NCBI GenBank assembly: GCA_018268465.1
Contig: JAFDWN010000030.1
Coordinates: forward strand, 62,001 to 126,000
DNA length: 64,000 nucleotides
DNA from: Actinomycetota bacterium
GTDB taxonomy: Bacteria; Actinomycetota; Actinomycetes; Mycobacteriales; Mycobacteriaceae
Direction of reading: 5' to 3'
The translations under genes and the position numbers were made by a program. The notes beneath the pieces were generated by a model that searched no databases, had not been told where the DNA came from, and was given only the letters and a program-made list of their open reading frames with translations. Shown here in pieces: positions 1,597 to 17,025 of this stretch. Each line of letters starts with the position of its first letter. Position 1 is the first letter of the stretch.

Positions 1597-3768
1597 TCAC
1601 AGCATGCAGCTGACGCAGCCCTCCACCTCGGTGCCCTCCAGAGCCATCTGACGCAGCCGGATGTAGTACAGCGTCTTGATCCCCTTGCGCCACGCGTAGA
1701 TCTGCGCCTTGTTGACGTCGCGGGTGGTGGCGGTGTCCTTGAAGAACAGCGTCAGGCTCAGCCCCTGGTCGACGTGCTGGGTGGCGGCGGCGTAGGTGTC
1801 GATGATCTTCTCGTAGCCGATCTCGTACGCGTCCTGGTAGTACTCCAGGTTGTCGTTGGTGAGGTAGGGCGCCGGGTAGTAGACGCGGCCGATCTTGCCT
1901 TCCTTGCGGATCTCGATCTTGCTCGCCACCGGGTGGATCGAACTCGTCGAATGGTTGATGTAGGAGATCGATCCGGTGGGCGGCACCGCCTGCAGGTTCT
2001 GGTTGTAGATGCCGTGACGCTGCACCGATTCCTTCAGCCGCCGCCAGTCGTCCTGGTCGGGGACCCGGATGCCGGCATCGATGAAGAGCTGACGCACCCG
2101 CTCGGTGGCCGGCTCCCACGGCTGCTCGGTGTACTTGTCGAAGAACTCACCGGATGCGTACTTGGACTTCTCGAAGCCCTTGAAGTGGGTACCTCGTTCG
2201 ATCGCAATGCGATTCGATGCGCGCAGGGCGTGGTAGAGCACCGTGTAGAAGTAGATATTGGTGAAGTCGATCCCCTCGTCGGACCCGTAGTGGATCCGTT
2301 CGCGCGCCAGGTATCCGTGCAGGTTCATCTGCCCCAGGCCGATGGCGTGCGACTCGTTGTTGCCCTGCTCGATCGACGGCACCGACCAGATGTGGGTCTG
2401 GTCGGACACCGCGGTCAATCCCCGGATGGCCACCTCGATGGTCTGGGCGAAGTCGGGGGAATCCATCGTCTTGGCGATGTTGAGTGATCCCAGGTTGCAC
2501 GAGATGTCCTTGCCCACCTGGGCGTACGTCAGATCCTCGTTGAACACCGACGGGGTGGAGACCTGCAGGATCTCCGAGCACAGGTTGGAGTGGGTGATCT
2601 TGCCCTCGATGGGGTTGGCCCGGTTCACCGTGTCCTCGAACATGATGTACGGGTAGCCCGATTCGAACTGCAGCTCGGCCAGCGTCTGGAAGAACTCGCG
2701 GGCCTTGATCTTGGTCTTGCGGATCCGCCCGTCGTTGACCATCTCGTGGTACTTCTCGGTGACCGAGATGTCGGCGAACGGCAGCCCGTAGACCCGCTCG
2801 ACGTCGTACGGCGAGAACAGGTACATGTCCTCGTTACGTTTGGCCAGCTCGAAGGTGATGTCCGGGATCACCACACCCAGCGACAGCGTCTTGATCCGGA
2901 TCTTCTCGTCGGCGTTCTCACGCTTGGTGTCCAGGAATCGGTAGATGTCGGGGTGGTGGGCGTGCAGATACACCGCACCCGCACCCTGACGGGCACCGAG
3001 CTGGTTGGCGTAGGAGAACGAATCCTCCAGCAGCTTCATGATGGGGATGACGCCCGAGCTCTGGTTCTCGATGTTCTTGATCGGGGCGCCGTGCTCGCGA
3101 ATGTTGGAGAGCAGCAACGCAACTCCCCCGCCGCGCTTGGACAGCTGCAGCGCGGAGTTGATGGAGCGCCCGATGGACTCCATGTTGTCCTCGATGCGCA
3201 GGAGGAAACACGACACCGGCTCGCCGCGCTGCTTCTTACCCGAGTTGAGGAAGGTCGGGGTCGCCGGCTGGAACCGTCCGTCGATGATCTCGTCGACGAG
3301 CTTCTCCGCCAGCGTGGTGTCCCCGGCGGCCAGCGTCAGCGACACCATCACCACCCGGTCCTCGAACCGCTCGAGGTAGCGCTTGCCGTCGAAGGTCTTC
3401 AACGTGTACGAGGTGTAGTACTTGAACGCGCCGAGGAACGTCGGGAAGCGGAACTTCTTGGCGTATGCGCGATCCAGTAGCGTCTTGACGAAATTGCGCG
3501 AGTACTGGTCGAGCACCTCGCGCTCGTAGTAGTTCTTCTGGATCAGGTAGTCGAGCTTCTCGTCCTGGTTGTGGAAGAAGACGGTGTTCTGGTTGACGTG
3601 CTGCAGGAAGTACTCGCGCGCGGCGAGCACATCCTTGTCGAACTGGATCCTGCCGTCGGCGTCGTACAGGTTCAGCATCGCGTTGAGCGCGTGGTAATCG
3701 GTTTCGCCGGGCAGCGCGTGGAGCGCGCCGGCGGTTACAGGCTCTGCAGCTGTGACGCTTGGTGGCAC
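1597..3768 (-). CDS. nrdE: Class Ib ribonucleoside-diphosphate reductase, alpha subunit
   Basis: A 723-residue catalytic subunit that reduces ribonucleoside diphosphates to deoxy forms; it works with NrdF, NrdI and NrdH. It is near identical in long stretches to mycobacterial NrdE ([49 protein letters not shown]). The C-terminal EGCVSCML supplies the swinging-arm Cys-x-x-Cys that NrdH re-reduces. The GTG start at 3768 has GGAAGG upstream and matches known N-termini; a longer in-frame reading exists but lies inside nrdI. It overlaps the end of nrdI by 34 bp. No nrdF follows in this window; in M. tuberculosis nrdF2 is also separated from nrdE by other genes. Confidence 0.97.
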
Positions 3769-4986: not shown

Positions 4987-5529
4987 TCAGCCGACCTCGG
5001 CGACCAGCTTCCCGACGATGTCACGGACGGCGTCGGCGACCTCGCGCCGCTCACGCGGATGCTCCCCGTCGAAGACGGTGGTCGACAGCGACAGCGACAG
5101 GTCCTCGACCACCCGTGCGCCGGCGATGCCGATCGACTTGCGGGTGTCGTCGTGCGCCCACACACCGCCGTACTGCCCCAGCGCCGCGCCGATGACGGCG
5201 GCGGGCTTGTCCTTGAGCGCTCCGCTGCCGTACGGGCGCGACAACCAGTCGATCGCGTTCTTGAGCACAGCCGGAATGGTGCCGTTGTACTCGGGCGTCA
5301 CGACCAGCGCGGCGTCGGCGCCCTGCGCCGCCTGCCGCAGCGCGACCACGGATTCGGCGGCGGCGTAGTTGTCGATGTCCTCGTTGTAGAAGGGCACCTC
5401 ACCGAGCCGGTCGAACACCCGCAGATGCACCCCTGCCGGCGCCACCTCCACGGCCAGCTCCGCCAGCTGCCGATTCACCGACGCCGCGCGCAGGCTCCCC
5501 ACCAGCACCAGGACCTTGATGTCCGCCAT
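4987..5529 (-). CDS. NADPH-dependent FMN reductase family protein
   Basis: A 180-residue flavodoxin-like NAD(P)H:FMN/quinone oxidoreductase. It starts with the phosphate-binding strand-loop VLVLVGSLRAASVNRQLAE and has the family signature TPEYNGTIPAVLKNAIDWLSRP near residue 90. ATG at 5529 has GGGAGC upstream; an ATG 13 codons earlier would run through the candidate TetR operator. It corresponds in position to Rv3054c (from memory). It is divergent from a TetR gene, which probably represses it. Likely role: two-electron reduction of quinones or nitro compounds. Confidence 0.85.
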   Translation of the reverse strand: MADIKVLVLVGSLRAASVNRQLAELAVEVAPAGVHLRVFDRLGEVPFYNEDIDNYAAAESVVALRQAAQGADAALVVTPEYNGTIPAVLKNAIDWLSRPYGSGALKDKPAAVIGAALGQYGGVWAHDDTRKSIGIAGARVVEDLSLSLSTTVFDGEHPRERREVADAVRDIVGKLVAEVG

Positions 5530-5554
5530 ATCCACTGCTCCCTTTCGGTCTTCG

Positions 5555-5564
5555 AACGATCGTT
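5555..5564. promoter_or_regulatory. Candidate TetR operator
   Basis: AACGATCGTT is a perfect 10-bp palindrome in the 90-bp gap between the divergent FMN reductase and TetR genes. Many TetR-family operators contain such AACGAT/ATCGTT half-sites. No second copy was seen in the gap. Confidence 0.5.
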
Positions 5565-5619
5565 GCACACGCCAACCGGACCACGGTCCGAATTATTCCC
5601 CCTGAGCTAAAGTCGAAAC

Positions 5620-6228
5620 GTGAACGCCCCTGACCTGACAGCCGAACTGCAGGTGTCCGCCGACGTGCCGCACGAACGCGGGGATGCCGCCCGTAACCGT
5701 GTGTTGCTCCTCGACGCGGCGCGCCGGCTCATCGCCGAGCGGGGCGCCGACGCGGTCAGTATGGACGATGTCGCCGCGGAAGCCGGCGTCGGCAAGGGGA
5801 CACTGTTCCGGCGGTTCGGCAGCCGCGCGGGTCTGATGATGGTGCTGCTGGACGAGGACGAGAAGGTCGAGCAGCAGGCCTTCCTGTTCGGCCCTCCCCC
5901 GCTGGGCCCCGGCGCACCGCCGCTGGCACGGCTGCTGGCCTACGGCCGTGAACGTGTGAAGTTCGTCCAGCGTCATCAGGCACTGCTTTCGGAAAGCTAC
6001 CGCGATCCGCAGACGCGGTACAGCGCCGTGGCGACCTTGCACCGCTCCCACGTCCGGCTGTTGCTGCAGGCGGCGGGCACCACCGGCGATCTCGACGCGC
6101 AGACCGACGCCCTGCTCGCGCTGCTCGACCCCGACCACGTCGGCCACCAACTCGCCGAGATGGGCGTGACTGTCGAGGCCCTGGGTGATGCGTGGGAGAG
6201 CGTTGCCCGCAAGCTCTGCGGGACGTGA
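5620..6228 (+). CDS. TetR/AcrR family regulator
   Basis: A 202-residue one-domain repressor. Residues ~27-75 form the TetR helix-turn-helix (LLLDAARRLIAERGADAVSMDDVAAEAGVGKGTLFRRFGSRAGL); the remainder is a divergent helical ligand domain. It starts at GTG 5620, 90 bp from the divergent FMN reductase, and is followed 3 bp later by dinB2, so the two may share a message. It matches Rv3055 by position. The likely targets are its own promoter and the reductase. Confidence 0.88.
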   Translation: MNAPDLTAELQVSADVPHERGDAARNRVLLLDAARRLIAERGADAVSMDDVAAEAGVGKGTLFRRFGSRAGLMMVLLDEDEKVEQQAFLFGPPPLGPGAPPLARLLAYGRERVKFVQRHQALLSESYRDPQTRYSAVATLHRSHVRLLLQAAGTTGDLDAQTDALLALLDPDHVGHQLAEMGVTVEALGDAWESVARKLCGT

Positions 6229-6231
6229 CCG

Positions 6232-7299
6232 ATGAGCGCCGGCTGGGTGCTCCACGTCGACCTCGACCAATTCCTCGCCTCGGTCGAGCTGCGGCGGCAC
6301 CCCGAGCTGGCCGGCCTGCCGGTCATCGTCGGCGGTAGCGGTGACCCGAACGAACCGCGCAAGGTCGTCACCTGCGCGTCCTATCAGGCACGCGAGTACG
6401 GGGTGCACGCCGGCATGCCGTTGCGCACGGCCGCGCGCAAATGCCCCGACGCGACCTTCCTGCCGTCGGACCCCGAGGCGTACGACGCGGCATCCGATGA
6501 GGTGATGGGCCTGCTGCGCGACCTCGGCCACCCCGTCGAGGTGTGGGGCTGGGACGAGGCGTACGTCGGGATGGATCCGGACGCCACCGGCGACCCGCTC
6601 GAGCTCGCCGAACGCATCCGCACCCTCGTGGCGGCCCAGACGGGCCTGTCCTGTTCGGTGGGTATCAGCGACAACAAACAGCGCGCCAAGGTGGCCACCG
6701 GGCTGGCCAAACCGGCCGGGGTCTACTCGTTGACCGACGGCAACTGGATGGCGGTGATGGGCGACCGGGGTGTGGACGCGCTGTGGGGCGTCGGGCCCAA
6801 GACGGCCAAGAAACTGGCCGGACTGGGCATCACGACGGTCGCCGACCTCGCCGCCACCGACGCCACCCTGCTGACATCGACGTTCGGGCCGACGACGGGG
6901 TTGTGGATCCTGTTGCTCGCCAAGGGCGGTGGCGACACGGAGGTCAGCGCCCAGCCGTGGGTGCCGCGCTCGCGCAGCCACGTGGTGACGTTCCCGCGCG
7001 ATCTCACCGACCGCGCCGAGATCGACTCGGCGGTGGCCGATCTCGCACGACGCACGCTTACCGAGGTGATCGACCAGGGTCGCACGGTCACCCGCGTGGC
7101 GGTCACCGTGCGCACCAGCACTTTCTACACCCGCACCAAGATCCGCAAACTCGCCGAACCCGGCACCGACGCCGCTGTCATCATCTCCACCGCGCTGTCT
7201 GTTCTCGGCATGTTCGAACTCGACCGGCCGGTGCGGCTGCTCGGCGTGCGGCTGGAGCTGGCCATGCCGTCGGAGCCGGCTGTCACCGCAGACCGATAA
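6232..7299 (+). CDS. dinB2: Y-family DNA polymerase IV, DinB2 type
   Basis: A 355-residue translesion polymerase equivalent to Rv3056/M. smegmatis DinB2. The catalytic carboxylates are Asp10 (VDLDQF) and the Asp108-Glu109 pair in WGWDEAYVG; a helix-hairpin-helix (ALWGVGPKTAKKLAGLGITTVADLA) and a little-finger domain follow. The steric-gate position, normally Phe/Tyr, is Leu15 in DLDQFLAS. In M. smegmatis DinB2 the same Leu lets the enzyme insert ribonucleotides. There is no C-terminal beta-clamp motif of the QLSLF type; the chain ends soon after the little finger. Confidence 0.92.
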   Translation: MSAGWVLHVDLDQFLASVELRRHPELAGLPVIVGGSGDPNEPRKVVTCASYQAREYGVHAGMPLRTAARKCPDATFLPSDPEAYDAASDEVMGLLRDLGHPVEVWGWDEAYVGMDPDATGDPLELAERIRTLVAAQTGLSCSVGISDNKQRAKVATGLAKPAGVYSLTDGNWMAVMGDRGVDALWGVGPKTAKKLAGLGITTVADLAATDATLLTSTFGPTTGLWILLLAKGGGDTEVSAQPWVPRSRSHVVTFPRDLTDRAEIDSAVADLARRTLTEVIDQGRTVTRVAVTVRTSTFYTRTKIRKLAEPGTDAAVIISTALSVLGMFELDRPVRLLGVRLELAMPSEPAVTADR

Positions 7300-7308
7300 C
7301 GTGACCGC

Positions 7309-8499
7309 ATGCTGCAGACGGTGGCGGTTCGTGGATACCGTTCGCTACGCGAGGTGGTTCTGCCGCTGGGCCGGCTGACCGTCGTCACCGGCGCCAACGG
7401 CACCGGCAAGTCGTCGGTGTACCGCGCGTTGCGACTGCTGGCCGATTGCGGCCGCGGTGAGGTCATCGGTTCGCTGGCCCGCGAGGGCGGGCTGCAGTCG
7501 GTGTTGTGGGCGGGCCCCGAACAGCTCGGCGGTGCGCGCCGCACGGGACGGGTGGAGGGCACCACCCGGACACGCCCGGTGTCGCTCGAACTCGGCTTCG
7601 CCTCCGACGATTTCGGCTATCTCGTCGACCTCGGCCTGCCGCAGTACGCGGGCCCCGCATCGGCGTTTGCCAGGGATCCCGAAATCAAACGCGAGGCGGT
7701 GTTCGCCGGCCCCGCGCTGCGATCGAGTTCGACGCTGGTACGCCGGGCCGGTGGCCTGGCGGAGGCCGCGGCCGAATCCGGGCGCGGATTCGACGAACTG
7801 ACCCGCGCGCTGGCGCCCTACCGCAGCGTGCTGGCCGAGTTCGCACATCCCGCTGCGCATCCGGAGCTGGCGGCAGTGCGGGATCGGCTGCGCGGGTGGC
7901 GCTTCTACGACGGCTTCCGCGCCGACGCCGCCGCACCGTCGCGCCGACCCGGGGTCGGCACCCGCACCCCGGTGCTCGGCGACGACGGCAGCGATCTGGC
8001 GGCGGCGGTGCAGACCATCATCGAGGCGGGGTTCGACGATCTGTCCCGTGCGGTGGCCGACGCGTTCGATGGCGCGACGGTCTCGATTGCCGTGCACGAC
8101 GGTCTCTTCGACCTCCAGCTGCACCAGCCCGGAATGCTCCGTCCGCTGCGGGCGGCCGAATTATCGGATGGCACACTGCGTTTCCTGCTCTGGGCGGCCG
8201 CACTGCTCAGCCCCGCGCCGCCGTCGTTGATGGTGCTCAACGAGCCGGAGACATCCCTGCATCCGGATCTGGTGCGCCCGCTGGCGTCTCTGGTGCGCAT
8301 CGCCGCCGCCCAGACCCAGGTGGTGGTCGTGACCCACTCGCGCGCGATGCTGGATTTTCTCGGCGCCGTCCCGGTCGCCGACGCCGGGGATCACCCGGAT
8401 GCCGCGGTGCGTGTCGAGCTGTACAAGGACTGCGGCGAGACCAAGGTGGCGGGCCTCGGGATGTTCGACGCGCCACGCTGGGACTGGGGAAAACGCTAG
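7309..8499 (+). CDS. RecF/COG4637-like AAA ATPase
   Basis: A 396-residue SMC-like ATPase. Visible are Walker A GANGTGKS (28-35), an ABC-type signature LSDGT (285-289) and the Walker B/D-loop LMVLNEPETSLHP (307-319), where the usual Walker B Asp is Asn, as seen in several COG4637 proteins. VVVVTHS is the switch region. Between Walker A and the signature there is only a short insert, so there is no long coiled coil. It starts 9 bp after dinB2, so it may be co-transcribed, and ends 7 bp from the convergent MBL gene. The function is unknown; DNA repair or a nuclease/effector ATPase are possible. Confidence 0.8.
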   Translation: MLQTVAVRGYRSLREVVLPLGRLTVVTGANGTGKSSVYRALRLLADCGRGEVIGSLAREGGLQSVLWAGPEQLGGARRTGRVEGTTRTRPVSLELGFASDDFGYLVDLGLPQYAGPASAFARDPEIKREAVFAGPALRSSSTLVRRAGGLAEAAAESGRGFDELTRALAPYRSVLAEFAHPAAHPELAAVRDRLRGWRFYDGFRADAAAPSRRPGVGTRTPVLGDDGSDLAAAVQTIIEAGFDDLSRAVADAFDGATVSIAVHDGLFDLQLHQPGMLRPLRAAELSDGTLRFLLWAAALLSPAPPSLMVLNEPETSLHPDLVRPLASLVRIAAAQTQVVVVTHSRAMLDFLGAVPVADAGDHPDAAVRVELYKDCGETKVAGLGMFDAPRWDWGKR

Positions 8500-8506
8500 A
8501 CGAGGA

Positions 8507-9781
8507 TCATCGGGCGCCGAGCAGGTCGATGGTGTGGGCCGGATTTCCCTCCAGCGGCACGATTTTCGCCGCCATCTCGGGATCCCCGCCGAAGAACGCC
8601 GTGAGACTGTGTTTTTCCTGCGACCATGCCGGCCGGGGTTTCTTGCCACCGGTGATCTCCGCGGCCCGCTTCTTATCCCATTCGGCTTTGCGCGCGGTGT
8701 CGATCTGGTCGAGCGGATAGGTGAGGTGGATCCGGTAGTCGTCTCCGCCTCTGGCCGTGCGCAACATCTCGAAGGTCTCCCGCTCCGGGTTGCCGTGTTC
8801 GCCGTTGCCGGAGAACACGTAGTGCTCGGCGGTCACCCTGGCGAAGAAGTCCGCCTCGACGTTGTTGGCGCTGCCGTGGTGGGGCACTTTCAGCACGTTT
8901 ACGTGCAGTTCGGTGCCGAGACCGACCAACTGCAGGCCTTCGAGGATCTTGTCGCCGCGGGCGTCACCGGTGAAGAGGACCGTCTTGCCCTCCACTTCGG
9001 CCAGCAGCACCAGACTGGAGAGGTTGGGCACCGAGCGGTCCACGTACTCGACGAGTGCCGCGGTGTTCGGCGCGGGCTTCTGCTGCTGCTTGGCGAGCCA
9101 TTCGTCGTGCTTCTGCTGCAGCTTCTCGACCTCCGTACGCATCGGGCCGATGACCGTGAACGTCAGCCCATTGCCGACGTCGATCGGCGCACCGTTCTCG
9201 ACGGCGATGACCAGACCGCCCTTGCCGTCGGCGTTGACCGGAATCTTGAGCACCTGCGCGTCGTCGCGCAACCGGAAACCCTGTTCGACGCCCGCGAGCA
9301 CCATGATGCCGGCGACAAAGGTGTCCGCGTCCACCAGGGCGTCGTCGGGCACCTCGGCCGACAGGCTGCCCGTCGCCGACGCCGTCCCGAACGAGGCCGT
9401 CGCCGCAGCCATCAGCTCCTTGGCCGTGTTGCCGACGATGTCGTCGAACGAGTTGTGCCACAGTCGCCGTGCTTTCAGATACTGAAACGAGCGGGTCCGC
9501 TCGGCGGCCACGAGTTCGTCGGTGAGCTGGAGCAGCCCTTTGACGTGGTCATCGTCGATATGGCTGAGCATCACGAAGTCGGCGACCAGCGGTTTGGTGT
9601 CCGGGATCTTCTTCTCGGCGCGCAGCTGCAGCAGCCGCGGTTTGAGATGGGGTCCGTAGACCCCGGCGGGGCCGCCGTCGATAATCGCGAATCCGGGCTT
9701 CTTCTTCGCACCGTAGTGCAGCAGCAGGCAGTCGCCTTTCCTCGCGGGTAGCACTTCGAGGGTGAAGACTTTGTCGGACAC
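8507..9781 (-). CDS. MBL-fold hydrolase (ComEC/Rec2-like beta-lactamase domain)
   Basis: A 424-residue soluble metallo-beta-lactamase-fold protein. The metal site is visible as HIDDDH (74-79), an Asp in FTGDARGDK (272-275) and the HHGSANN block (301-307) typical of ComEC-C-terminal-like MBL proteins, which may act on nucleic acids or other phosphoesters. A glutamine/lysine-rich helix (KLQQKHDEWLAKQQQKPAP, ~220-238) is inserted between them. It has no membrane segment, so it is not a DNA-uptake channel. It is the last gene of the patatin-protease-MBL operon, 11 bp after the protease stop. Confidence 0.82.
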   Translation of the reverse strand: MSDKVFTLEVLPARKGDCLLLHYGAKKKPGFAIIDGGPAGVYGPHLKPRLLQLRAEKKIPDTKPLVADFVMLSHIDDDHVKGLLQLTDELVAAERTRSFQYLKARRLWHNSFDDIVGNTAKELMAAATASFGTASATGSLSAEVPDDALVDADTFVAGIMVLAGVEQGFRLRDDAQVLKIPVNADGKGGLVIAVENGAPIDVGNGLTFTVIGPMRTEVEKLQQKHDEWLAKQQQKPAPNTAALVEYVDRSVPNLSSLVLLAEVEGKTVLFTGDARGDKILEGLQLVGLGTELHVNVLKVPHHGSANNVEADFFARVTAEHYVFSGNGEHGNPERETFEMLRTARGGDDYRIHLTYPLDQIDTARKAEWDKKRAAEITGGKKPRPAWSQEKHSLTAFFGGDPEMAAKIVPLEGNPAHTIDLLGAR

Positions 9782-9792
9782 GGCGATTCACC

Positions 9793-11739
9793 TCACTGGC
9801 TCTGCAGCGCACGAAGGACGTCGAGGATGCCGTGGCCCTGGAAGCTGCGTTCGCGGCCCAGGTCGGTGGCGGACTCGCACAGGATGCGCTTGATCTTGTC
9901 GGGTTTCCCGATCAGCTCGGGGTAGCGGGCCATCAGCAGTGCTGCGGCGCCGCTGACGTGCGGCGCGGCCATGCTGGTGCCGTCGAGGAAGTCCCACGAG
10001 TCACCCAGTACGGGCGCGTAGATGCGCTCACCGGGTGCGACGAGGTCGGGTTTCAGCCGGCCGTCGCCGGTCGGACCCCGGCTGGAGAAGTAGCTGATCC
10101 CGTAGGTGAAGGGTGCATATCGATGGGTGGAGCCGACGGTGATGACGCGTTCGGCGTTGCCGGGATCGGTGATGCTGAAGGCGATGTAGTTGTTGAACGC
10201 CTGCCCGTTGACGGTGGTCTGCTGATATCCGAAGTTGCCCGCGGCGGCCACCACGACGACGCCGCTGTCGACGAGGCGTTCGCTCTCCACACACACCGGG
10301 GTGCCGCCGCAGGCGTAGTTGCGCACGTCGTGCGGGATCGCCAGGCTCATGTTGACGCCCTTGATCTCCAGGAAACCGGCCTGTTCGTTCTTGTTGCGGA
10401 TGAACTGCAGTGCGGCGATCACCGCGAATTCCGTGTCGCTGCTGCTCGCACCGAGAATCCGGAAGTCGTAGAGGCCGATGCCCGGACACATGCCGTTGGC
10501 GTTGTCGACCCCGGTGCCGTCGGCGTCGGGGTCGGGAGGCTCGTCGGTGTTCGGGCCGGCGCGGCACGCGCCGATGATGCCGGCCACGTGGGTGCCGTGT
10601 TCGCTGCGGGGCAGCCGGGGCGCATCGCCGAGGTCGACGAACTCCTCGATGAGATCCGATCGCAACGGCAGGCCGTCGACGCAGGCCTTCGCGATCTTCT
10701 TGAGTTTGGTGTTGGCCCCGTTGGGCAGCCGGCCGCCGCGCGCGGCTTTGATGGTGGCGAGATTGGCCGTGCGCACCGCGTCGTCCTCGTTGCCGAGGTC
10801 GACGATCTCGCGGTAGAAGGTGAAGTCGTAGGTGTGCTTGACCGTGGTCGGGTTGAACGCCGGGTGATCGGTCTTGATGCCGGAATCCACGACCGCCCAG
10901 TTGATATCCCTGAAATCGACGTCGAAGAGCCGTCGCGCGGCGTCGGCCTTCACCGTCGGCACCGATCTCGCGATGGCCGCCGAGGCCGGCCGGTTGCGGG
11001 AGATCTGGAAGACCATGGGTGTCCGGGCCGGCGACCGCGCGGCCCGCCCCGGCGCGGGGGTGTCCATCCGTGTCAGCAGCTCGACTACCTGTTGTTTGAT
11101 TCTGTCCTCACCTCGGGGGCTGGCTTGGAGCCGGTCGATGTTCTGCTGGGCGATCGCCGCTTTCTCCCCCTCGCTGACGACCTCCGAGCGGATCGCGCGG
11201 TCGCTGCCGGCGATGAATACGAGCGCGCACAGCGCGACGAAACGCCCCAACGCCGACCGTGGCCGGTCGTCCATCTTCTCGCTGGAATTGGCGTCGCTCC
11301 AACGGTTCAGCAGGACCCGGACGTCGGCCACCGTCTCGTCGATTTTCTGGGGCTCCGCGCTGCCCGTGGCGGTTCCGATCGCGAGGTAGGCCTCGAGTTC
11401 GGCCTTTGTCCGCTTCTCGTTCCACCACTTCGACATCGGGACCAGGATCTCGGCGACCTCGTCGAAGTAGAGTTTCGCCGCGACGAAGCTCTGCAACGGG
11501 GCGACCCTGGGGTCGCCTTCGGTGGCATCGCGGCGGGCCGAGACCTGCCGGTGGATCTCCGCGGCGAGTTTGCTGGCGGTCGTCTCCTTGTGCGATGTGA
11601 TGAGCAGGTCCACCGGCTCGAAAGGGTCCGATGCGTAAGCGATCCAGACGTCGCCGAGGATCGGTGAATCCTGCAGGTGGCGCCTGCTGTCGCCGCTGCC
11701 CAGCAGGATGTATTCGACCAGGTCGGGAGAGATGATCAC
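9793..11739 (-). CDS. Subtilisin-like (S8) serine protease with unknown N-terminal region
   Basis: A 648-residue protein. The S8 catalytic triad is complete: Asp285 (WAVVDSGIKTDHP), His381 (EHGTHVAGI) and Ser589 (DGTSMAAPHVSG), with the oxyanion Asn502 in AAAGNFG. Residues 1-270 are not a typical I9 propeptide; they carry a helical region without a recognised domain. There is no signal peptide, so the enzyme is probably cytosolic, which is unusual for S8. The GTG start at 11739 overlaps the patatin stop (GTGA), so translation is coupled. A longer reading upstream lies inside the patatin gene and is rejected. The N-terminal part may be a sensor or inhibitor, but this is inference. Confidence 0.88.
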   Translation of the reverse strand: MIISPDLVEYILLGSGDSRRHLQDSPILGDVWIAYASDPFEPVDLLITSHKETTASKLAAEIHRQVSARRDATEGDPRVAPLQSFVAAKLYFDEVAEILVPMSKWWNEKRTKAELEAYLAIGTATGSAEPQKIDETVADVRVLLNRWSDANSSEKMDDRPRSALGRFVALCALVFIAGSDRAIRSEVVSEGEKAAIAQQNIDRLQASPRGEDRIKQQVVELLTRMDTPAPGRAARSPARTPMVFQISRNRPASAAIARSVPTVKADAARRLFDVDFRDINWAVVDSGIKTDHPAFNPTTVKHTYDFTFYREIVDLGNEDDAVRTANLATIKAARGGRLPNGANTKLKKIAKACVDGLPLRSDLIEEFVDLGDAPRLPRSEHGTHVAGIIGACRAGPNTDEPPDPDADGTGVDNANGMCPGIGLYDFRILGASSSDTEFAVIAALQFIRNKNEQAGFLEIKGVNMSLAIPHDVRNYACGGTPVCVESERLVDSGVVVVAAAGNFGYQQTTVNGQAFNNYIAFSITDPGNAERVITVGSTHRYAPFTYGISYFSSRGPTGDGRLKPDLVAPGERIYAPVLGDSWDFLDGTSMAAPHVSGAAALLMARYPELIGKPDKIKRILCESATDLGRERSFQGHGILDVLRALQSQ

Positions 11740-12887
11740 GACAGCGGCTCCTCCGGGTAGGGCAGCTGCGTGGCGGCGCCGAGCCGCCCGTTGGGGTAGT
11801 GCGTGCGCAGGCCGGCGTCGCAGATGATGTAGCCCCAGTTGACGAGGCGTTTCTGGATCTCCTCGGGCACCCTGGCCAACCGGGTCGGCAGGGCGGCCAA
11901 TGGCGCGGTGCGTTTCGGATCGGCGCTGAGCACCGCGTCGTCGAACCGGGCGGTGTCGCTGCGGATTCCGACGTACATCCCGGACCTGGCACCGGCGATG
12001 AATGATTCGATGACTTGACGTTTGCGCAGTGCCCGGACCTGGCTGTCGACGATCTTGAGCACCCGCGCGGTCTGTCGCAGCGGATCGGTGGCCGGCTCGT
12101 CGTCGGGTGCCAGGCGGCCGCCCGCGTCGCTGACGATGATCGACGTGTAGTTCTTCCAGGCGGTTTCGAGACCGAGGTTGTCGTAGACACCGCCATCGGT
12201 GAGCCGGATGACGCCACGGAAGCCCGGCGTGACGAGGGTGTTGCCGGTGTCGGTGACCCAGGTGCGGTCCCGCAGGTCCAGGGTGCACGGCGACAGTACG
12301 GGCGGGAACGCCGACGACGCGGCCACCGCGACCGCGAGTTCCAGGTCGGGTCGCATGACCCGGCCCACGGTGTGGTCACCGAGGTATTTCTTGGCGAACC
12401 GCATCAACGCGCCGGATTCCAGATTCGTCGCGTTGAAGACGAACCGCGGCGCGTCGGGAAGGTCCTGCAGTGTGGCATCGCCGAAGAGATGCCTGCGGTA
12501 GGCGGCCGCGACCCGGTCGGCCACCGAGTCGCCGAAACTCAGAACTCCGCCGAGCACCGCGGTGACGTCCACCGTGGACCCACTCATCCGGAGGATCGGT
12601 TCGACCAGCTCTTCGCCGAAGTTGACAGCAGAGTTGTTCTCCCACTTGAGATTCGACCAGCACAGCGCCAGCGCTCCCGCGGTGATGGAACCGCCGGACA
12701 CGGCGGACACGTGGTCGAGTTCGGGCAGCAGGCCGACCTCGTTGAGTCGCCACAGCACGCCGACGTGGAATACCATCGCGCGGTAGCCGCCACCGGAAAG
12801 GCATAGCGCCAGACCCTGCCCGGGCCGGTCGTCGTGAGACGGGTCGTGTACGGGACTCATCACATCGTTCGGTACAGCGCCCACCAT
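11736..12887 (-). CDS. Patatin-like phospholipase
   Basis: A 383-residue lipid acyl hydrolase with the patatin Ser-Asp dyad. The oxyanion loop is SGGGYRA (31-37), the nucleophile is Ser64 in AVSGGS, and the second catalytic residue is Asp231 in LTDGGVYDN. There is no signal peptide or membrane anchor, so it would act on the inner face of the membrane. The ATG at 12887 has GGGAGAG upstream; Met10 is an alternative start. It is the first gene of an operon with an S8 protease and an MBL protein. Soluble patatins serve as membrane-attacking effectors in several anti-phage systems; whether that holds here is unknown. Confidence 0.9.
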   Translation of the reverse strand: MVGAVPNDVMSPVHDPSHDDRPGQGLALCLSGGGYRAMVFHVGVLWRLNEVGLLPELDHVSAVSGGSITAGALALCWSNLKWENNSAVNFGEELVEPILRMSGSTVDVTAVLGGVLSFGDSVADRVAAAYRRHLFGDATLQDLPDAPRFVFNATNLESGALMRFAKKYLGDHTVGRVMRPDLELAVAVAASSAFPPVLSPCTLDLRDRTWVTDTGNTLVTPGFRGVIRLTDGGVYDNLGLETAWKNYTSIIVSDAGGRLAPDDEPATDPLRQTARVLKIVDSQVRALRKRQVIESFIAGARSGMYVGIRSDTARFDDAVLSADPKRTAPLAALPTRLARVPEEIQKRLVNWGYIICDAGLRTHYPNGRLGAATQLPYPEEPLS

Positions 12888-13203
12888 CGCCTCTCTCCCA
12901 CCGCGTCGCCGGCAACCCGCACAGGTCCAGCTCGCAAGGGACCGGCACGGTCTGACTTCCTCACCCGCCGCAAACGCTAGCGGCGCGCCGAAGCGATCAA
13001 TCGCGTAGCGCGGTACTCGTCTTTTCCGGGTCGGTGCGCAGCTGGGTGAGTACTCGTCCCCAGACCCGCAGCGGCCGAGGCTACCGGTGTCCGATCGGAT
13101 GTAAAGGTAACCAAACTAAACAATTCGTGCGGGCGTCATCGCCGGTTCACCGGAATCCCGTTCAATTCGCTCGGTCCGGTTCCACCGATCGAGGAGTTCG
13201 TCC
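12888..13203. other. 316-bp divergent promoter region (patatin operon / phoA)
   Basis: No gene was seen. The 9-mer GTACTCGTC occurs twice in direct orientation (13013-13021 and 13050-13058), 37 bp apart and about 130-170 bp upstream of the patatin start, which could be regulator half-sites. On the phoA side GTTCACC (13145) and GTTCAAT (13160) resemble Pho-box units but are 15 rather than 11 bp apart. Confidence 0.4.
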
Positions 13204-14748
13204 GTGTCCGTCCGTTCGTTTCACAAGGCGCTCGCCGTTGCCGGCGCCTCATCGATGCTGGTGCTCGCCGGCTGTAGCAGCGGGGAGAGCAGCCGGCCCG
13301 CGGCGGCCGGCGGCGACACCGTGAGCCGCGCCGCCGCCGGCGATTTGGCGGCCAACGGCGGGGCGCGCCGGTTGACCGGTGACGACAGCGAGGCCATCCG
13401 CACGGCGATCAGCGACACCTCCGCCAAGAACGTGATCCTGCTGATCGGTGACGGAATGGGGGATTCGGAGATCACCATCGCGCGGGACTACGCCAAGGGC
13501 GCGGGCGGCTTCTTCGAGGGGCTCGACGCCTTCCCCCTCACCGGCCAGTACACCACCTACTCGCTGCGCAAGGACGGAAAGCCCAGCTACGTCACCGACT
13601 CCGCGGCCAGCGCCACCGGGTGGTCCACCGGCACCAAAACCTATAACGGCGCGCTCGGCATCGACGTCAAGAACACCAAGCAGCCGACCATCCTGGAGTT
13701 GGCCAAGGCGCAGGGTTTCGCCACCGGCGACATCACCACCTCCGAGATCCAGGACGCCACACCGGCAGCGCTCTACTCCCACATCACCGAACGCGACTGT
13801 TACGGCCCGCAGGAGATGGCGGAGATGTGCCCGGACGAGACGCTGGAGAAGGGCGGGCCCGGATCGGTCACCGAGCAGCTGCTGGCGGGTGCCCCCGACG
13901 TCACCATGGGCGGCGGCGCCGAGACGTTCGCCCAGACCGCGACGGCCGGCGCCTACCAGGGTCAGACGCTGGAGGCCCAAGCCAAGGCGCGTGGATTCCA
14001 GATCGTGCGCACCGCAGATGAACTGGCGGATGTGTCCAAGGCCGATCAGGACGCCCCGCTGCTTGCGCTGTTCGCCGACGGCAACATGCCGGTGCGTTCG
14101 ACCGGGCCGGCGGCCGTCCGTCGGGGCTATCTGCAGCCGGCGGCGACCTGCACGGACAACCCCGACCACGGCGCCGACGTGCCGATGCTCGCCGATATGA
14201 CCTCCAAGGCCATCGACCTGCTCTCGACGAGCCCGAGGGGCCAGGACAAGGGCTTCTTCCTCCAGGTCGAATCCGCGTCGATCGACAAGCGCGACCACGC
14301 GGCCGACCCGTGTGGGCAGATCGGCGAGACGGTGCAGTTCGACGAGGCCGTGCAGAAGGCCCTGGACTTCGCCCGCAAGGACGGCAACACCCTGGTGATC
14401 GCCACGGCCGACCACGGCCATTCCAGCCAGATCGTCGAGCCCTACACCGAGGAGGATCTGGCCGATCTGGCCGCGGACTCCAAGATGCCCGTCGAACAGG
14501 TCCGCGACGTCATGTATCCGGGCCTGACCCGCACGCTGACCACTGCCGACGACGCCGAGCTGATCGTCAGCTACGGCACCTCGGCCGACGTCGGCGTCGA
14601 GGACCAGACCCACACCGGCACGCAGGTCCGCGTCGCCGCCTTCGGTCCGCGTGCCGCCAACGTCGTCGGGCTGACCGATCAGACCGACCTGTTCTTCACC
14701 ATGACCGATGCGCTGGGCGTCGACCGGTCAGGAGACGGCGGGCACTGA
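13204..14748 (+). CDS. phoA: Alkaline phosphatase, lipoprotein form
   Basis: A 514-residue PhoA-family phosphomonoesterase. A lipoprotein signal peptide ends in LVLAGC with Cys24 as lipid anchor, so it sits outside the membrane. Metal and active-site motifs match Pho[11 protein letters not shown] (~81-89), the nucleophile Ser133 in [36 protein letters not shown], and TADHGHSS. It would release phosphate from organic esters using two Zn and one Mg. The GTG start at 13204 has GAGGAG upstream. There is no phosphate transporter nearby. Confidence 0.93.
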
Positions 14749-14761
14749 CGGAACCCGTCAG
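14745..14761. terminator. Small hairpin between convergent phoA and SDR genes
   Basis: CTGACGG-AAC-CCGTCAG forms a 7-bp perfect stem with a 3-nt loop that overlaps both stop codons. Because phoA and the SDR gene converge here with only 9 bp between them, it could stop transcription from both sides. There is no U-tract. Confidence 0.45.
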
Positions 14762-15615
14762 CGGCGAGTCGGCCTGAGCGCCCGGGTGAACACCACGTTC
14801 ACCCGGGCCATCGCCATGCTGTACGGCAACCAGGCCAACCGCTTGAACAGGTACAGCGCACGGATGTCGGCGGAGGTGTAGATCAGATAGCGGTTCTTGC
14901 ACACCCCGCCGAGGATCCGGTCGGCGACCCGCTCCGGGGACGCCGCGTGTCCGGCGAACCGTTCGGTCCACCGGCGCACCCTGGGATCGTCGCGGTCCAC
15001 GCCGGCGATCTGAATCGTCTGCACCAGAGGGGTTTTCACCGCGCCGGGCACCACGACCGAGACCCCGATGCGATGCCTGGCGAGGTCGAATCGCAGGACC
15101 TCGCTCAGTCCGCGCAGTCCGTATTTGCTGGCGCTGTAGGCGCTGTGCCACGGCAGGGCGACCAGGCCCGCCGCCGACGACACGTTGACCAGATGCCCCC
15201 CTCGGCCGGCGGCCACCATCGGGGGCAGGAAGGTCTCGATGACGTGGATCGGCCCCATCAGGTTGACGTCGATCATCGACTTCCAGTGCTCGTGGGTGAG
15301 CTGATCGACTGTGCCCCAAGCGGATACGCCCGCGATGTTCATCACCACGTCCATCGCCGGGTGCCGGGTGTGGATGTCGGCGGCAAAGTGGGCGACGGCG
15401 TCGTAGTCGGCGATGTCCAGCGCGCGGTACTCGGGGACCTCGGCCCCGAGCGCCCGCACGTCGGCGACCGTGGTCGCCAGACCGTCGGCGTCACGGTCGG
15501 TCAGATACAACTCGGCGCCGTCGACCGCCAGCTTCAGCGCGGTCGCGCGCCCGATGCCGCTCGCGGCCCCGGTCAGGAGACAACGTTTGCCGGTGAAGCC
15601 GCCGCGTTGCGCCAT
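14758..15615 (-). CDS. Short-chain dehydrogenase/reductase
   Basis: A 285-residue classical SDR: TGAASGIGRATA (NAD(P)-binding loop, ~16-27), NIAG, the catalytic Ser in VNVSSAAG and YSASK (Tyr and Lys). The C-terminal ~40 residues (RALYLFKRLAWLPYSMAMARVN) are hydrophobic and may touch the membrane. It corresponds to Rv3057c by position. The ATG at 15615 begins the family-typical MAQRGGFTGKRCLLTG; no strong ribosome site is seen. The substrate is unknown, perhaps a lipid or steroid given the neighbouring CYP136. Confidence 0.88.
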   Translation of the reverse strand: MAQRGGFTGKRCLLTGAASGIGRATALKLAVDGAELYLTDRDADGLATTVADVRALGAEVPEYRALDIADYDAVAHFAADIHTRHPAMDVVMNIAGVSAWGTVDQLTHEHWKSMIDVNLMGPIHVIETFLPPMVAAGRGGHLVNVSSAAGLVALPWHSAYSASKYGLRGLSEVLRFDLARHRIGVSVVVPGAVKTPLVQTIQIAGVDRDDPRVRRWTERFAGHAASPERVADRILGGVCKNRYLIYTSADIRALYLFKRLAWLPYSMAMARVNVVFTRALRPTRR

Positions 15616-15632
15616 GGCGCCGACGATACCGG

Positions 15633-16505
15633 CTACCCGCCGGCGCCCCGGGAGATGACCTCGGCCAGCGACACGGGTGGGCGGCCGATGAGCTTCTCGG
15701 TGTCGCCGACCGGCGTCTCGAGCAGCCCCGCGCGAATACTCTCGCCGAATCCGGTGAGTACACCTGCGAGTTCGGCGGGCACGCCGGCACCGATGAGCCC
15801 GTCGGCGTACGCCTCGTCGGATACGCCGATCACCTCGACGGTCCTGCCGTAGCGGGTCGACAGCGCCGCGGCGATCGCGGCGTCGTCGACGAGGTCCGCT
15901 CCCCCGATGTCGTAGACGGCGTTGTCGTGGCCGTCGCCGAGCAGGACCGCGGCGGCGGCCGCCGCGCAGTCGTCGCGCAGCAACGGTGCCTGCCGCCCGG
16001 ATCCGTTGTTGCTGACCAGTTGTCCGGTGGCACCGGCATGGGCCAGGCCGCCGAGCTGCAGATCCAGGTAGAGCGCGTTGCGCAGGATGGTCCACGCCGG
16101 TCCGGCCGCGGCAAGGGCGCGCTCGGTGGCTGCGTGGTCGTCGGAGAGCGGGCGCAGCCGCGCGGGGAACGCCGCGTCGGCGTTGGGCATCGAGGTGTAG
16201 ACGATCCGGCCGACGCCGGCTTGCACCGCCGCGGCGATGGCCGCCTCGTGCTGGCTGCGGCGCCGGCCGACGGCGTCGGTGGAGATCAGCAGCAACACGT
16301 CCACACCGCCGAACGCCTCGGTCAGCGTGGCGGGTGCGTCGAAGTCGGCCTGGCGAACCTGGGCGCCCGCCGCGGCGAATTCACCGAGGGACTGCGGCGA
16401 ACGGCTGAACAGCACCGTCTCCTGTGGCGTCTGCGACGCCAGGACGTACTCGGCGGTGCGACGGCCGAGCGCGCCCGCCGCGCCGGTGATTCCCACGATG
16501 GTCAT
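15633..16505 (-). CDS. NmrA-like NAD(P)-binding quinone reductase (QorB/YtfG type)
   Basis: A 290-residue atypical SDR. The dinucleotide loop is GITGAAGALGRRTAEYVL at the N-terminus, and the middle YTSMPNADAAF...HAATERAL and RNALYLDLQ blocks are typical of the YtfG/QorB quinone oxidoreductase branch. GGGAGGC precedes ATG 16505. It is divergent from an HxlR regulator with a conserved Cys. In Corynebacterium glutamicum the same pairing (qor2 with QorR) is induced by quinones or diamide. Likely role: NADPH-dependent quinone detoxification. Confidence 0.8.
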   Translation of the reverse strand: MTIVGITGAAGALGRRTAEYVLASQTPQETVLFSRSPQSLGEFAAAGAQVRQADFDAPATLTEAFGGVDVLLLISTDAVGRRRSQHEAAIAAAVQAGVGRIVYTSMPNADAAFPARLRPLSDDHAATERALAAAGPAWTILRNALYLDLQLGGLAHAGATGQLVSNNGSGRQAPLLRDDCAAAAAAVLLGDGHDNAVYDIGGADLVDDAAIAAALSTRYGRTVEVIGVSDEAYADGLIGAGVPAELAGVLTGFGESIRAGLLETPVGDTEKLIGRPPVSLAEVISRGAGG

Positions 16506-16531
16506 GACTGCCTCCCGGTGTTGCCACCTCT

Positions 16532-16550
16532 TAGTTACGAATAGATACTG
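16532..16550. promoter_or_regulatory. Candidate HxlR (QorR-like) operator
   Basis: TAGTTAC-GAA-TAGATAC lies in the 73-bp gap between the divergent reductase and HxlR genes. It can be read as a direct repeat TAGwTAC or as an imperfect dyad AGTTAC-N5-GATACT. The AT-rich block stands out in GC-rich surroundings and would overlap either promoter. Confidence 0.5.
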
Positions 16551-16578
16551 ACAACATCGTGAGGAACCAGGAGGGGAT

Positions 16579-17025
16579 GTGCAAGAAGGCACTTCGACGT
16601 CAGTCGGGCACACCGGGGTAACCGTCGCGGTCACCGGGCTGGACGACCTGCTGGCTATGACGCCCGACACAGTGCTCGGCCCCTGCCCGGTGCGCGACGT
16701 CCTCGACCGGGTCGGCGACAAATGGTCGGTCCTGGTGATCTCGCTGCTGGGCGCGGGCCCGATGCGCTTCACCGAACTCAAACGCACCATCGGGGTGGTG
16801 TCCCAGCGGATGTTGACGGTGACACTGCGCGCACTGGAACGTGACGGCCTGGTGCGCCGCACCGTGCATCCCGTCGTGCCGCCGCGCGTCGACTACCAGC
16901 TGACCGATCTCGGGCGCAGTCTGCACGACATCCTCGATCAGCTCGCGCACTGGGCGTTCGCCCACAGCGACGACGTGGCTGCGGCGCGTGCGGCCTACGA
17001 CGGACTAAGCCGGGCCACAGTCTGA
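16579..17025 (+). CDS. HxlR (DUF24) redox-type regulator
   Basis: A 148-residue winged-helix regulator: CPVRDVLDRVGDKWSVLVISLL, RFTELKRTIGVVSQRMLTVTLRALERDGLV and YQLTDLG. The conserved N-terminal Cys36 (GPCPVRD) is the sensing residue in QorR, HypR and YodB relatives. GTG 16579 has a very strong AGGAGGGG site; a later ATG at 16657 does not. It runs 21 bp into the 3' end of the convergent TetR gene. It probably represses the divergent quinone reductase. Confidence 0.85.
   Translation: MQEGTSTSVGHTGVTVAVTGLDDLLAMTPDTVLGPCPVRDVLDRVGDKWSVLVISLLGAGPMRFTELKRTIGVVSQRMLTVTLRALERDGLVRRTVHPVVPPRVDYQLTDLGRSLHDILDQLAHWAFAHSDDVAAARAAYDGLSRATV

Follow-up and report, generated by a model that had tools for sequence, protein, structure and literature searches.

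In a 64,000-nucleotide stretch of the genome of a bacterium of the family Mycobacteriaceae (assembly GCA_018268465.1, contig JAFDWN010000030.1, positions 62,001 to 126,000; hereafter the window) lies an operon of three minus-strand genes that encode, in this order, a patatin-like phospholipase, a peptidase of the S8 (subtilisin) family and a hydrolase of the metallo-β-lactamase (MBL) fold. The patatin-S8-MBL set is a recurrent, mobile, accessory module, in which the tie of S8 to MBL is tight and that of the patatin looser. The reading best supported by the evidence, which we advance tentatively and with a little less than even confidence, is that the operon is an S8-type version of the protease-gated MBL pro-nuclease pairs, with the phospholipase as a second effector.

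A recurrent three-gene module

11736..12887, minus strand: patatin-like phospholipase, 383 amino acids; SGGGYRA oxyanion motif, Ser64 in SGGS, Asp231 in DGG
9793..11739, minus strand: S8 (subtilisin-family) peptidase, 648 amino acids; GTG start
8507..9781, minus strand: MBL-fold hydrolase, 424 amino acids; SHIDDDH and HHGS motifs; ComEC-like, predicted DNase

The patatin and S8 genes share 4 nt (GTGA) at stop and start, and 11 bp separate the S8 and MBL genes, an arrangement correctly described in an earlier, sequence-only reading of the window, which had also found the catalytic residues intact and signal peptides lacking. The residues it named are present, and the catalytic positions are invariant among aligned homologues: S64/D231 of the patatin in 25/25, D285/H381/N502/S589 of S8 in 51/51 and H74/D76/D78/H79/D273/H301/H302 of the MBL protein in 61/61. 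No hydrophobic leader is apparent by eye at any of the three N-termini, and peak 19-residue hydropathy is 1.40-1.54 across the three proteins. A Pfam scan assigns the patatin gene to Patatin (3.6e-20) and the S8 gene to Peptidase_S8 (1.5e-37, residues 282-637); the MBL protein matches Lactamase_B at 5e-4 and 20.5 bits, under the cut-off of 22.7. Among PADLOC models the patatin matches none at E 0.01, and those hit by S8 are a general subtilase model (6.6e-41) and, with a weak score, IetS (1.4e-06). Scans for promoter and terminator consensus sequences gave no more matches than in shuffled sequence, and no repeat resembling an element end was seen.

Homologues of the three genes do co-occur, a point on which the sequence-only reading had staked its proposal. 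A profile of the MBL sequences of the window, M. hubeiense and genome G018 yielded 158 confirmed relatives in genome contigs, the best 80 loci of which were analysed (one of them, L045, is M. hubeiense, the source of one query sequence). By script, S8 lies directly upstream of the MBL gene on the same strand in 68 of the 80; two of the remaining 12 run off the end of a contig and ten fail the script test, among them L081, in which tblastn finds S8 in two pieces. A related patatin accompanies S8-MBL at 38 of the 68 loci, being upstream on the same strand in 31, downstream in six (five by script; L085 added by hand) and inverted in one. Three of the 38 are damaged, as fragments (L058, L082) or a split open reading frame (ORF; L049), and in L090, another of the ten loci that fail the script, there is no S8 between the patatin and MBL pieces; such shortening, breakage or loss is as expected of a decaying accessory operon. 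A Tle1-like phospholipase is found at 7/68 S8-MBL loci, four of which are closely similar Sphingopyxis-type loci. The complete order with patatin upstream recurs in six phyla as titled—Actinomycetota, Pseudomonadota, Acidobacteriota, a deltaproteobacterium, Zixibacteria and Gemmatimonadota—the last four each represented by one metagenome-derived contig.

Across the 80 loci (1.26 Mb) 42 ORFs match the patatin profile, and all except that of L103 adjoin S8 or MBL genes; L049 and L090 contribute two pieces each to this count, and the profile was built from the operon's own family, leaving other patatins, e.g. in L061, outside it. The operon of M. triplex repeats both the 4-nt overlap and the 11-bp gap (start codons picked by script). 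Together, the M. triplex spacing and the patatin count rule out chance linkage of the three genes. S8 and MBL distances correlate at r 0.876 (53 loci, species history uncorrected), with 0/2000 permutations in a Mantel test (likewise uncorrected); patatin distances correlate with those of S8 at r 0.67 and with those of MBL at r 0.62 (24 loci).

Because the 80-locus search began from MBL, counts begun from S8 weigh more. MBL adjoins S8 in all five plasmid records in which the S8 query was covered over at least 80%, which are also the five top plasmid records for MBL, and in both other full-length S8 carriers, relative G013 and Actinomycetota genome G157. The window's genome is a Mycobacterium as GTDB defines the genus, and G013, of the same genus, has sequence in common with the M. 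hubeiense record; a single-sequence S8 query over genome contigs gave no confirmed match. It is because these S8-first counts agree, whereas patatin-first counts (below) rarely do, that we call the one tie tight and the other looser. In the Actinomycetota sample (376 genomes, own included) the S8 profile matches 11 genomes (2 full length), the patatin profile 6 and the MBL profile 4; in Mycobacterium the MBL profile matches 3/148, own included, part of the first-look candidates having been scored in both MBL counts. The Actinomycetota loci comprise S8-MBL (G157), patatin with a weakly matching S8 and MBL (G316), a weakly matching S8 with MBL (G363), patatin with a long ORF that weakly matches MBL (G143), and patatin alone (G327, G099, G105). 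Among 60 relatives the one patatin match (G036) has a divergent MBL adjacent and no S8. A patatin 46-49% identical to the window's stands beside a divergent MBL, without S8, at L032 (5285-9979), together with a 775-residue protein that has no Pfam match (phosphoribosyltransferase-like by eye) and an adjacent integrase-like gene.

Four mycobacteria carry the operon at different insertion sites: none of the window's neighbours adjoins the triad in M. triplex, M. vinylchloridicum or M. deserti, and the flanks of these three, judged by eye, differ from one another. The window's own site is as follows.

8500..14757, no strand: interval between the AAA gene and the short-chain dehydrogenase (SDR) gene; contains the operon and an alkaline phosphatase gene
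7309..8499, plus strand: AAA_21 ATPase, oriented towards the operon; belongs with dinB and SDR to the surroundings and not to the system

The sequence-only reading took the operon for an accessory insertion between dinB and the SDR gene. Among 41 genomes searched, 23 apart from that of the window gave a dinB match, and the region was retrieved from 15; in 15/15 dinB and SDR are present and the three operon genes are absent from between them. The insertion thus stands, but its extent needs correction: the AAA gene belongs to the conserved surroundings, and the 6.3 kb that separate AAA from SDR hold, besides the operon, the alkaline phosphatase gene (13204-14748). In 8/15 relatives without the operon the AAA gene is at the same place (one a partial match), which rules it out as the system's sensor; in four of these eight (L137, L140, L141, L144) the AAA and SDR matches lie within ~20 bp of each other. 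The dinB-SDR spot seems to accumulate genes, since L146, a relative that lacks the operon, has a phosphatase homologue (1951-3477) there; other genes are found at it in L138, L143 and L145.

Third genes of the S8-MBL pair vary. M. hubeiense has S8-MBL followed by a Tle1-like gene (PF09994, 2e-69) and a Miltoncostaea plasmid has S8-MBL-DUF2235; on Methylorubrum pCMU01 (L122, 3564-10239) a Pycsar operon (PycC 2e-220, E2 1e-85, PycTIR 4.5e-92) lies 288 bp upstream of the pair; and FRG-pYEATS (L125), TPR-S (L093) and a DUF4062-like gene just under cut-off (L078) appear elsewhere. The protease varies too. Elsewhere in the genome from which the window comes, a further operon (L034, 332-5071, minus strand) consists of a patatin, a large HExxH protein (motif HEMAH, no Pfam match) and an MBL gene that matches 6A-MBL (9.5e-11) and Avs1a (2.4e-10) far under cut-off; its patatin shares 65% identity with that encoded behind S8-MBL in Streptomyces antibioticus (L113), and the operon is a protease-swapped counterpart of that in the window. 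An island on a conjugative plasmid of Rhizobium phaseoli (L125, 694-11457) carries an HExxH-type gene (its product a relative of the L034 HExxH protein, 3e-66), an MBL-like gene (sub-threshold match), FRG-pYEATS, S8, MBL, DUF3616 and SIR2, and may combine two types of pairing between protease and MBL. More distant MBL relatives adjoin a caspase-like gene (L116) and a C11 peptidase gene (L115).

Architecture of the protease and the MBL protein

11425..11619, minus strand: S8 residues ~41-105, first part of a predicted I9-type prodomain (AlphaFold model and VIA-align)
11020..11415, minus strand: S8 residues ~109-240, helical insertion within the predicted prodomain (model and alignment)
9796..10950, minus strand: S8 catalytic domain, residues ~264-648 (Pfam and model)
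9185..9469, minus strand: MBL extra stretch 1, residues ~105-199, lower confidence at 110-160 (dip in per-residue model confidence, pLDDT)
9026..9142, minus strand: MBL extra stretch 2, residues ~214-252, lower confidence at ~225-250 (pLDDT dip)

The N-terminal ~270 residues of S8, which had been set down as unrecognised, are predicted by a model of the whole protein to form a split subtilisin prodomain. The AlphaFold model (mean pLDDT 83.3) aligns by VIA-align with unprocessed pro-subtilisins over 370 residues starting at residue 20 (3afg) and over 346 and 337 residues starting at residues 39 and 41 (2zwp, 3whi), and with mature subtilisins over ~260-270 residues starting at residue 260; a family missing from the VIA-align output counts as no evidence. 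Residues ~41-105 and a strand at 243-248 look like an I9-type prodomain split by the helical insertion, and on the strength of this prediction S8 is probably a zymogen. Pfam has no match in the predicted prodomain region.

S8 relatives with short N-termini have a seemingly uninterrupted region, in which, by profile alignment, the strand IYRVWPNF aligns on MVFQISRN of the window protein; the helical insertion is not seen in those paired with an α/β hydrolase, and in the window protein it is a candidate sensor or docking part. Such a short S8 lies directly beside an α/β hydrolase in 18/19 loci examined (L033, L036-L040, L126, L175-L186), made up of 6/6 relatives, 8/9 loci of the phylum sample and 4/4 plasmid loci; L178 has no hydrolase, and in L180 only part of one is present, at the contig end. 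In those 18 loci no MBL gene stands beside the unit. The partner hydrolase has no Pfam match above cut-off, and its lipase activity is a guess. In a tree of S8 catalytic domains the 18 short forms are monophyletic (0.997), and the 51 long forms group together with support of only 0.196. Viral contigs L193 (4816-7272) and L194 (4708-7176) encode a single protein in which an α/β-hydrolase-like motif, recognised by eye, precedes S8; Pfam gives this region a sub-threshold Thioesterase match only, and in L193 a tyrosine integrase gene adjoins the fusion gene. In two mycobacteria the short S8-hydrolase unit has a neighbouring gene that by eye resembles one for a haem peroxidase (L036, 5948-7834; L040, 10941-13859, the latter with a catalase-like tail, also by eye).

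The coupling of patatin to protease on which the sequence-only reading was built holds in one respect and shifts in another: the S8 lineage is tied to lipase-type hydrolases (patatin, Tle1-like, α/β hydrolase, and the hydrolase-like fusion of the two viral contigs), but the steadiest partner of the present S8 form is MBL. That reading points well but needs MBL at its centre.

The MBL model has a ComEC-like fold with an intact metal site, and its two extra stretches together add ~94 residues to what ComEC has between the motif blocks. In NCBIfam the best match is Avs1a (121.5 bits, 3.4e-35; cut-off 420), followed by ComEC, 6A-MBL and AHM beta-lactamase, all below cut-off; in PADLOC the matches are LmuA (2e-43), RTasMBL (3.8e-26) and Avs1a (1.5e-24).

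Possible functions of the module

That the three genes act together in the window's genome is much more likely than any specific account of what they do. As such an account we favour, at slightly under an even chance, a protease-controlled toxic module, most likely serving abortive defence against phages or some other kind of regulated self-harm. The closest published mechanism, as presented in the main text of Tuck et al. 2025 (PMC12799240), is that of protease-activated MBL pro-nucleases, which the sequence-only reading did not name; the proposal that S8 fires the MBL protein as a DNase is made because coinheritance, a hallmark named there, is seen here and two insertions that may block the active site are present. 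In outline, S8 would be produced in the cytoplasm as a zymogen, with the helical insertion in its prodomain; an infection or damage signal, sensed by the insertion or by a partner, would release the protease; active S8 would then cut the two extra MBL stretches and unmask the DNase, a step modelled on the trypsin-like and caspase-like partners of related MBL nucleases; and the phospholipase would be a second effector, acting on the membrane under the control of S8 or of the trigger that releases S8. Signal, cleavage, the DNase and phospholipase activities, cell death and defence are putative elements of this scheme, as is the cutting or control of the phospholipase by S8.

The scheme in its fullest form, a compact immune cascade of three hydrolases with its own sensor, in which an S8 zymogen whose prodomain houses a sensor domain would fire both DNase and phospholipase to strike genome and membrane together, is a bolder proposition and correspondingly more doubtful. 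If true, the MBL protein would be the first MBL nuclease gated by a subtilisin, and bacteria would have a death programme that a protease fires at two targets: a further protease family would have come to activate MBL pro-nucleases by proteolysis, one protease switch would join nucleic-acid and membrane killing, and the sister lineage of S8 with α/β hydrolase would use the lipase arm only. There would also be a parallel to fungal cell death as outlined in PMC12881547, where pathways employ either a subtilisin-like protease acting on a gasdermin or a patatin receptor. Since so small and widespread a module is found on plasmids of bacteria from soil and plants, the idea is directly testable.

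Plasmid context speaks in part for a conflict system, the role assigned by the sequence-only reading. MBL matches were obtained in 67 plasmid records and the surroundings read for six (H1-H5, H8). Established or candidate defence genes lie nearby in three of the six: Pycsar in H1, FRG and SIR2 in H5, and Shedu, at a distance of ~1.2 kb, in H8, whose S8-MBL pair is more distant. By plasmid typing H1, H2, H5 and H8 are conjugative, H3 and H4 non-mobilizable; in H2 patatin-S8-MBL is surrounded by transposases. The copy on Sinorhizobium meliloti plasmid accessoryB (L121) comprises patatin WP_234896393.1, S8 WP_088199121.1 and MBL WP_088199122.1. A linked, mobile module with known or candidate defence genes at 3/6 plasmid loci is thus upheld; a clear excess of defence genes around chromosomal copies is not. 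The enrichment in defence islands that the sequence-only reading had singled out as a check was examined with PADLOC (E 1e-15) at 62 loci (the 68 with S8 minus 6 near-duplicates), using script-called genes of 100-900 residues, 126 near (of 213 collected) and 145 far (of 151).

The outcome of this comparison is the first of several points that weigh against a defence role or against the three genes as a unit. Near genes matched 57 PADLOC families and far genes 61, and among the matches listed there is no clear defence-gene excess around chromosomal copies: the near set includes Septu PtuA and PtuB, ThsB-like, mad6, PD-T4-6 and PDC-M50B, the far set methyltransferases and CARF regulators, and mad3 has three members in each; transglycosylases and transporters head a Pfam tally of the near genes. 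Three of the six plasmid loci read (H2, H3, H4) have no recognised defence neighbour. The MBL protein's own PADLOC matches cannot show a defence role, because PADLOC contains defence proteins only, and neither a known sensor nor an NTPase is encoded in the operon. For the extra MBL stretches a mostly helical structure is predicted. MBL relatives are absent from viral contigs (profile search) and from a phage collection (single-sequence search). The family patatin and Tle1 are both missing, by script, at 24/68 S8-MBL loci (23 after L085); when the search starts from the patatin, S8 and MBL are adjacent in only one of five other Actinomycetota genomes (G316), and the strong patatin match in G327 has neither beside it. 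Plain linkage accounts for part of the co-inheritance and can yield distance correlations such as those above. Ten Bradyrhizobium-type loci have both chromosomal flanks in common; they are not independent, and their shared flanks fit a resident function. The S8-MBL pair, finally, may already stand in the supplement of PMC12799240.

Viral contigs do contain relatives of the other two genes, with five matches to the patatin profile and two to that of S8; the triad is in none. In L190 a weak MBL-like ORF (2e-05) lies beside the patatin, and L189 ends at the match. The patatin of viral contig L188 (796-2631), which is of the operon's family, is fused to an N-acetylmuramoyl-L-alanine amidase domain.

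Several of these observations are accommodated by an alternative in which the working unit is the S8-MBL pair alone and the phospholipase is a swappable passenger effector, or a sensor-side enzyme untouched by the protease. The pair is the constant core at loci with and without a phospholipase, its third genes range over patatin, Tle1-like, Pycsar TIR, FRG, DUF4062-like and TPR-S, its internal distance correlation exceeds that of patatin and S8, and the patatin occurs without it in four of the five other Actinomycetota genomes and in G036. But the 4-nt patatin/S8 overlap in both the window and M. triplex, the filling of the same role by two unrelated phospholipase folds, the sister S8 lineage that stands beside an α/β hydrolase and not MBL in 18/19 loci, and the joining of a hydrolase-like region to S8 in one protein on two viral contigs all speak against it, and we consider a pair that works without its phospholipase unlikely, if still a serious competitor of the protease-controlled toxic module.

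Less likely again is a cellular response to stress, damage or lipid quality (envelope repair, regulated lysis or DNA clearing) with no specific role against phages or plasmids. The common flanks of the Bradyrhizobium-type loci would suit it, as would the absence of a clear defence-gene excess and of MBL relatives in phages and viral contigs; the sparse distribution in Mycobacterium and Actinomycetota, the different insertion sites in four mycobacteria, the conjugative plasmids with defence genes and the anti-phage MBL that is the best NCBIfam match of the MBL protein would not. That phospholipase and DNase serve as an interbacterial or plasmid-competition device, hitting rivals or cells that lose the element, we regard as very improbable: patatin folds occur in secreted effectors, the name of PF09994 comes from a phospholipase effector of type VI secretion and there are copies on conjugative plasmids, but no secretion gene was recognised by eye among the ORFs of 5000-17000 beside the operon, and the N-termini are not leader-like.

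Comparison with known systems

Individual components recall several defence systems; membership of AVAST, Lamassu, canu and CBASS can be rejected. AVAST type 1 consists of the Avs1a MBL, the Avs1b protease and the Avs1c STAND NTPase, and Avs1a is the closest NCBIfam model to the window's MBL protein; the score is 121.5 vs 420 bits, however, the protease family differs, and no STAND NTPase was found in the four proteins scanned or, by eye, among the ORFs of 5000-17000. Lamassu combines an LmuA effector with an SMC-type LmuB. The MBL protein matches the PADLOC model of LmuA (2e-43), but there is no SMC-type gene in the operon and the adjoining AAA_21 gene belongs to the surroundings. In the subtilase defence system IetAS, as here, the protease is of the S8 family; the window operon has no ATPase, and S8 scores 14.5 bits against the NCBIfam IetS cut-off of 900. 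CapV is the patatin effector of CBASS and, like it, the window's patatin has an intact catalytic dyad; no CD-NTase is present in the four scanned proteins or, by eye, among the ORFs of 5000-17000, and CBASS too is rejected.

No paper about a patatin-S8-MBL triad was found by title or abstract in the open-licence PMC literature (supplements not covered); PMC12560110 contains the terms 'patatin-like phospholipase' and 'S8 family peptidase'. Term searches find no mention of S8, patatin or MBL in the text of the conflict-system survey PMC8195603, and in that of PMC7159879 one passage only that names an S8 domain, as a flank of NucA endonuclease domains alongside trypsin, with no patatin or MBL.

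The nearest relatives in design remain the pairs described by Tuck et al. (PMC12799240), in whose main text the terms 'subtilisin', 'subtilase', 'patatin' and 'lipase' are absent. According to that text, an MBL pro-nuclease of Hachiman and one of AVAST are activated by a trypsin-like partner, as seen for AVAST with cut-site mutants and blots, and one from a canu (caspase-nuclease) locus by a caspase; coinheritance with the protease and site-blocking insertions are named as hallmarks. The window operon is not a canu system, its protease being S8 and not of the caspase family. It differs from the pairs so described in that this protease is a standalone S8 enzyme with a predicted prodomain, encoded upstream, rather than a trypsin or caspase; in that no helicase, STAND NTPase, caspase or CanB is recognised in the operon; and in that a phospholipase is the commonest third gene of S8-MBL. 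It resembles them in other respects: as in the HamMAB, AVAST and canu pairs, a gene of the MBL superfamily adjoins a protease gene and is inherited with it; more distant MBL relatives stand beside caspase-like (L116) and C11 peptidase (L115) genes; and, as in HamM, there are two extra MBL stretches, which by residue number, unaligned, fall at about the positions of the HamM cuts, I118 and I218.

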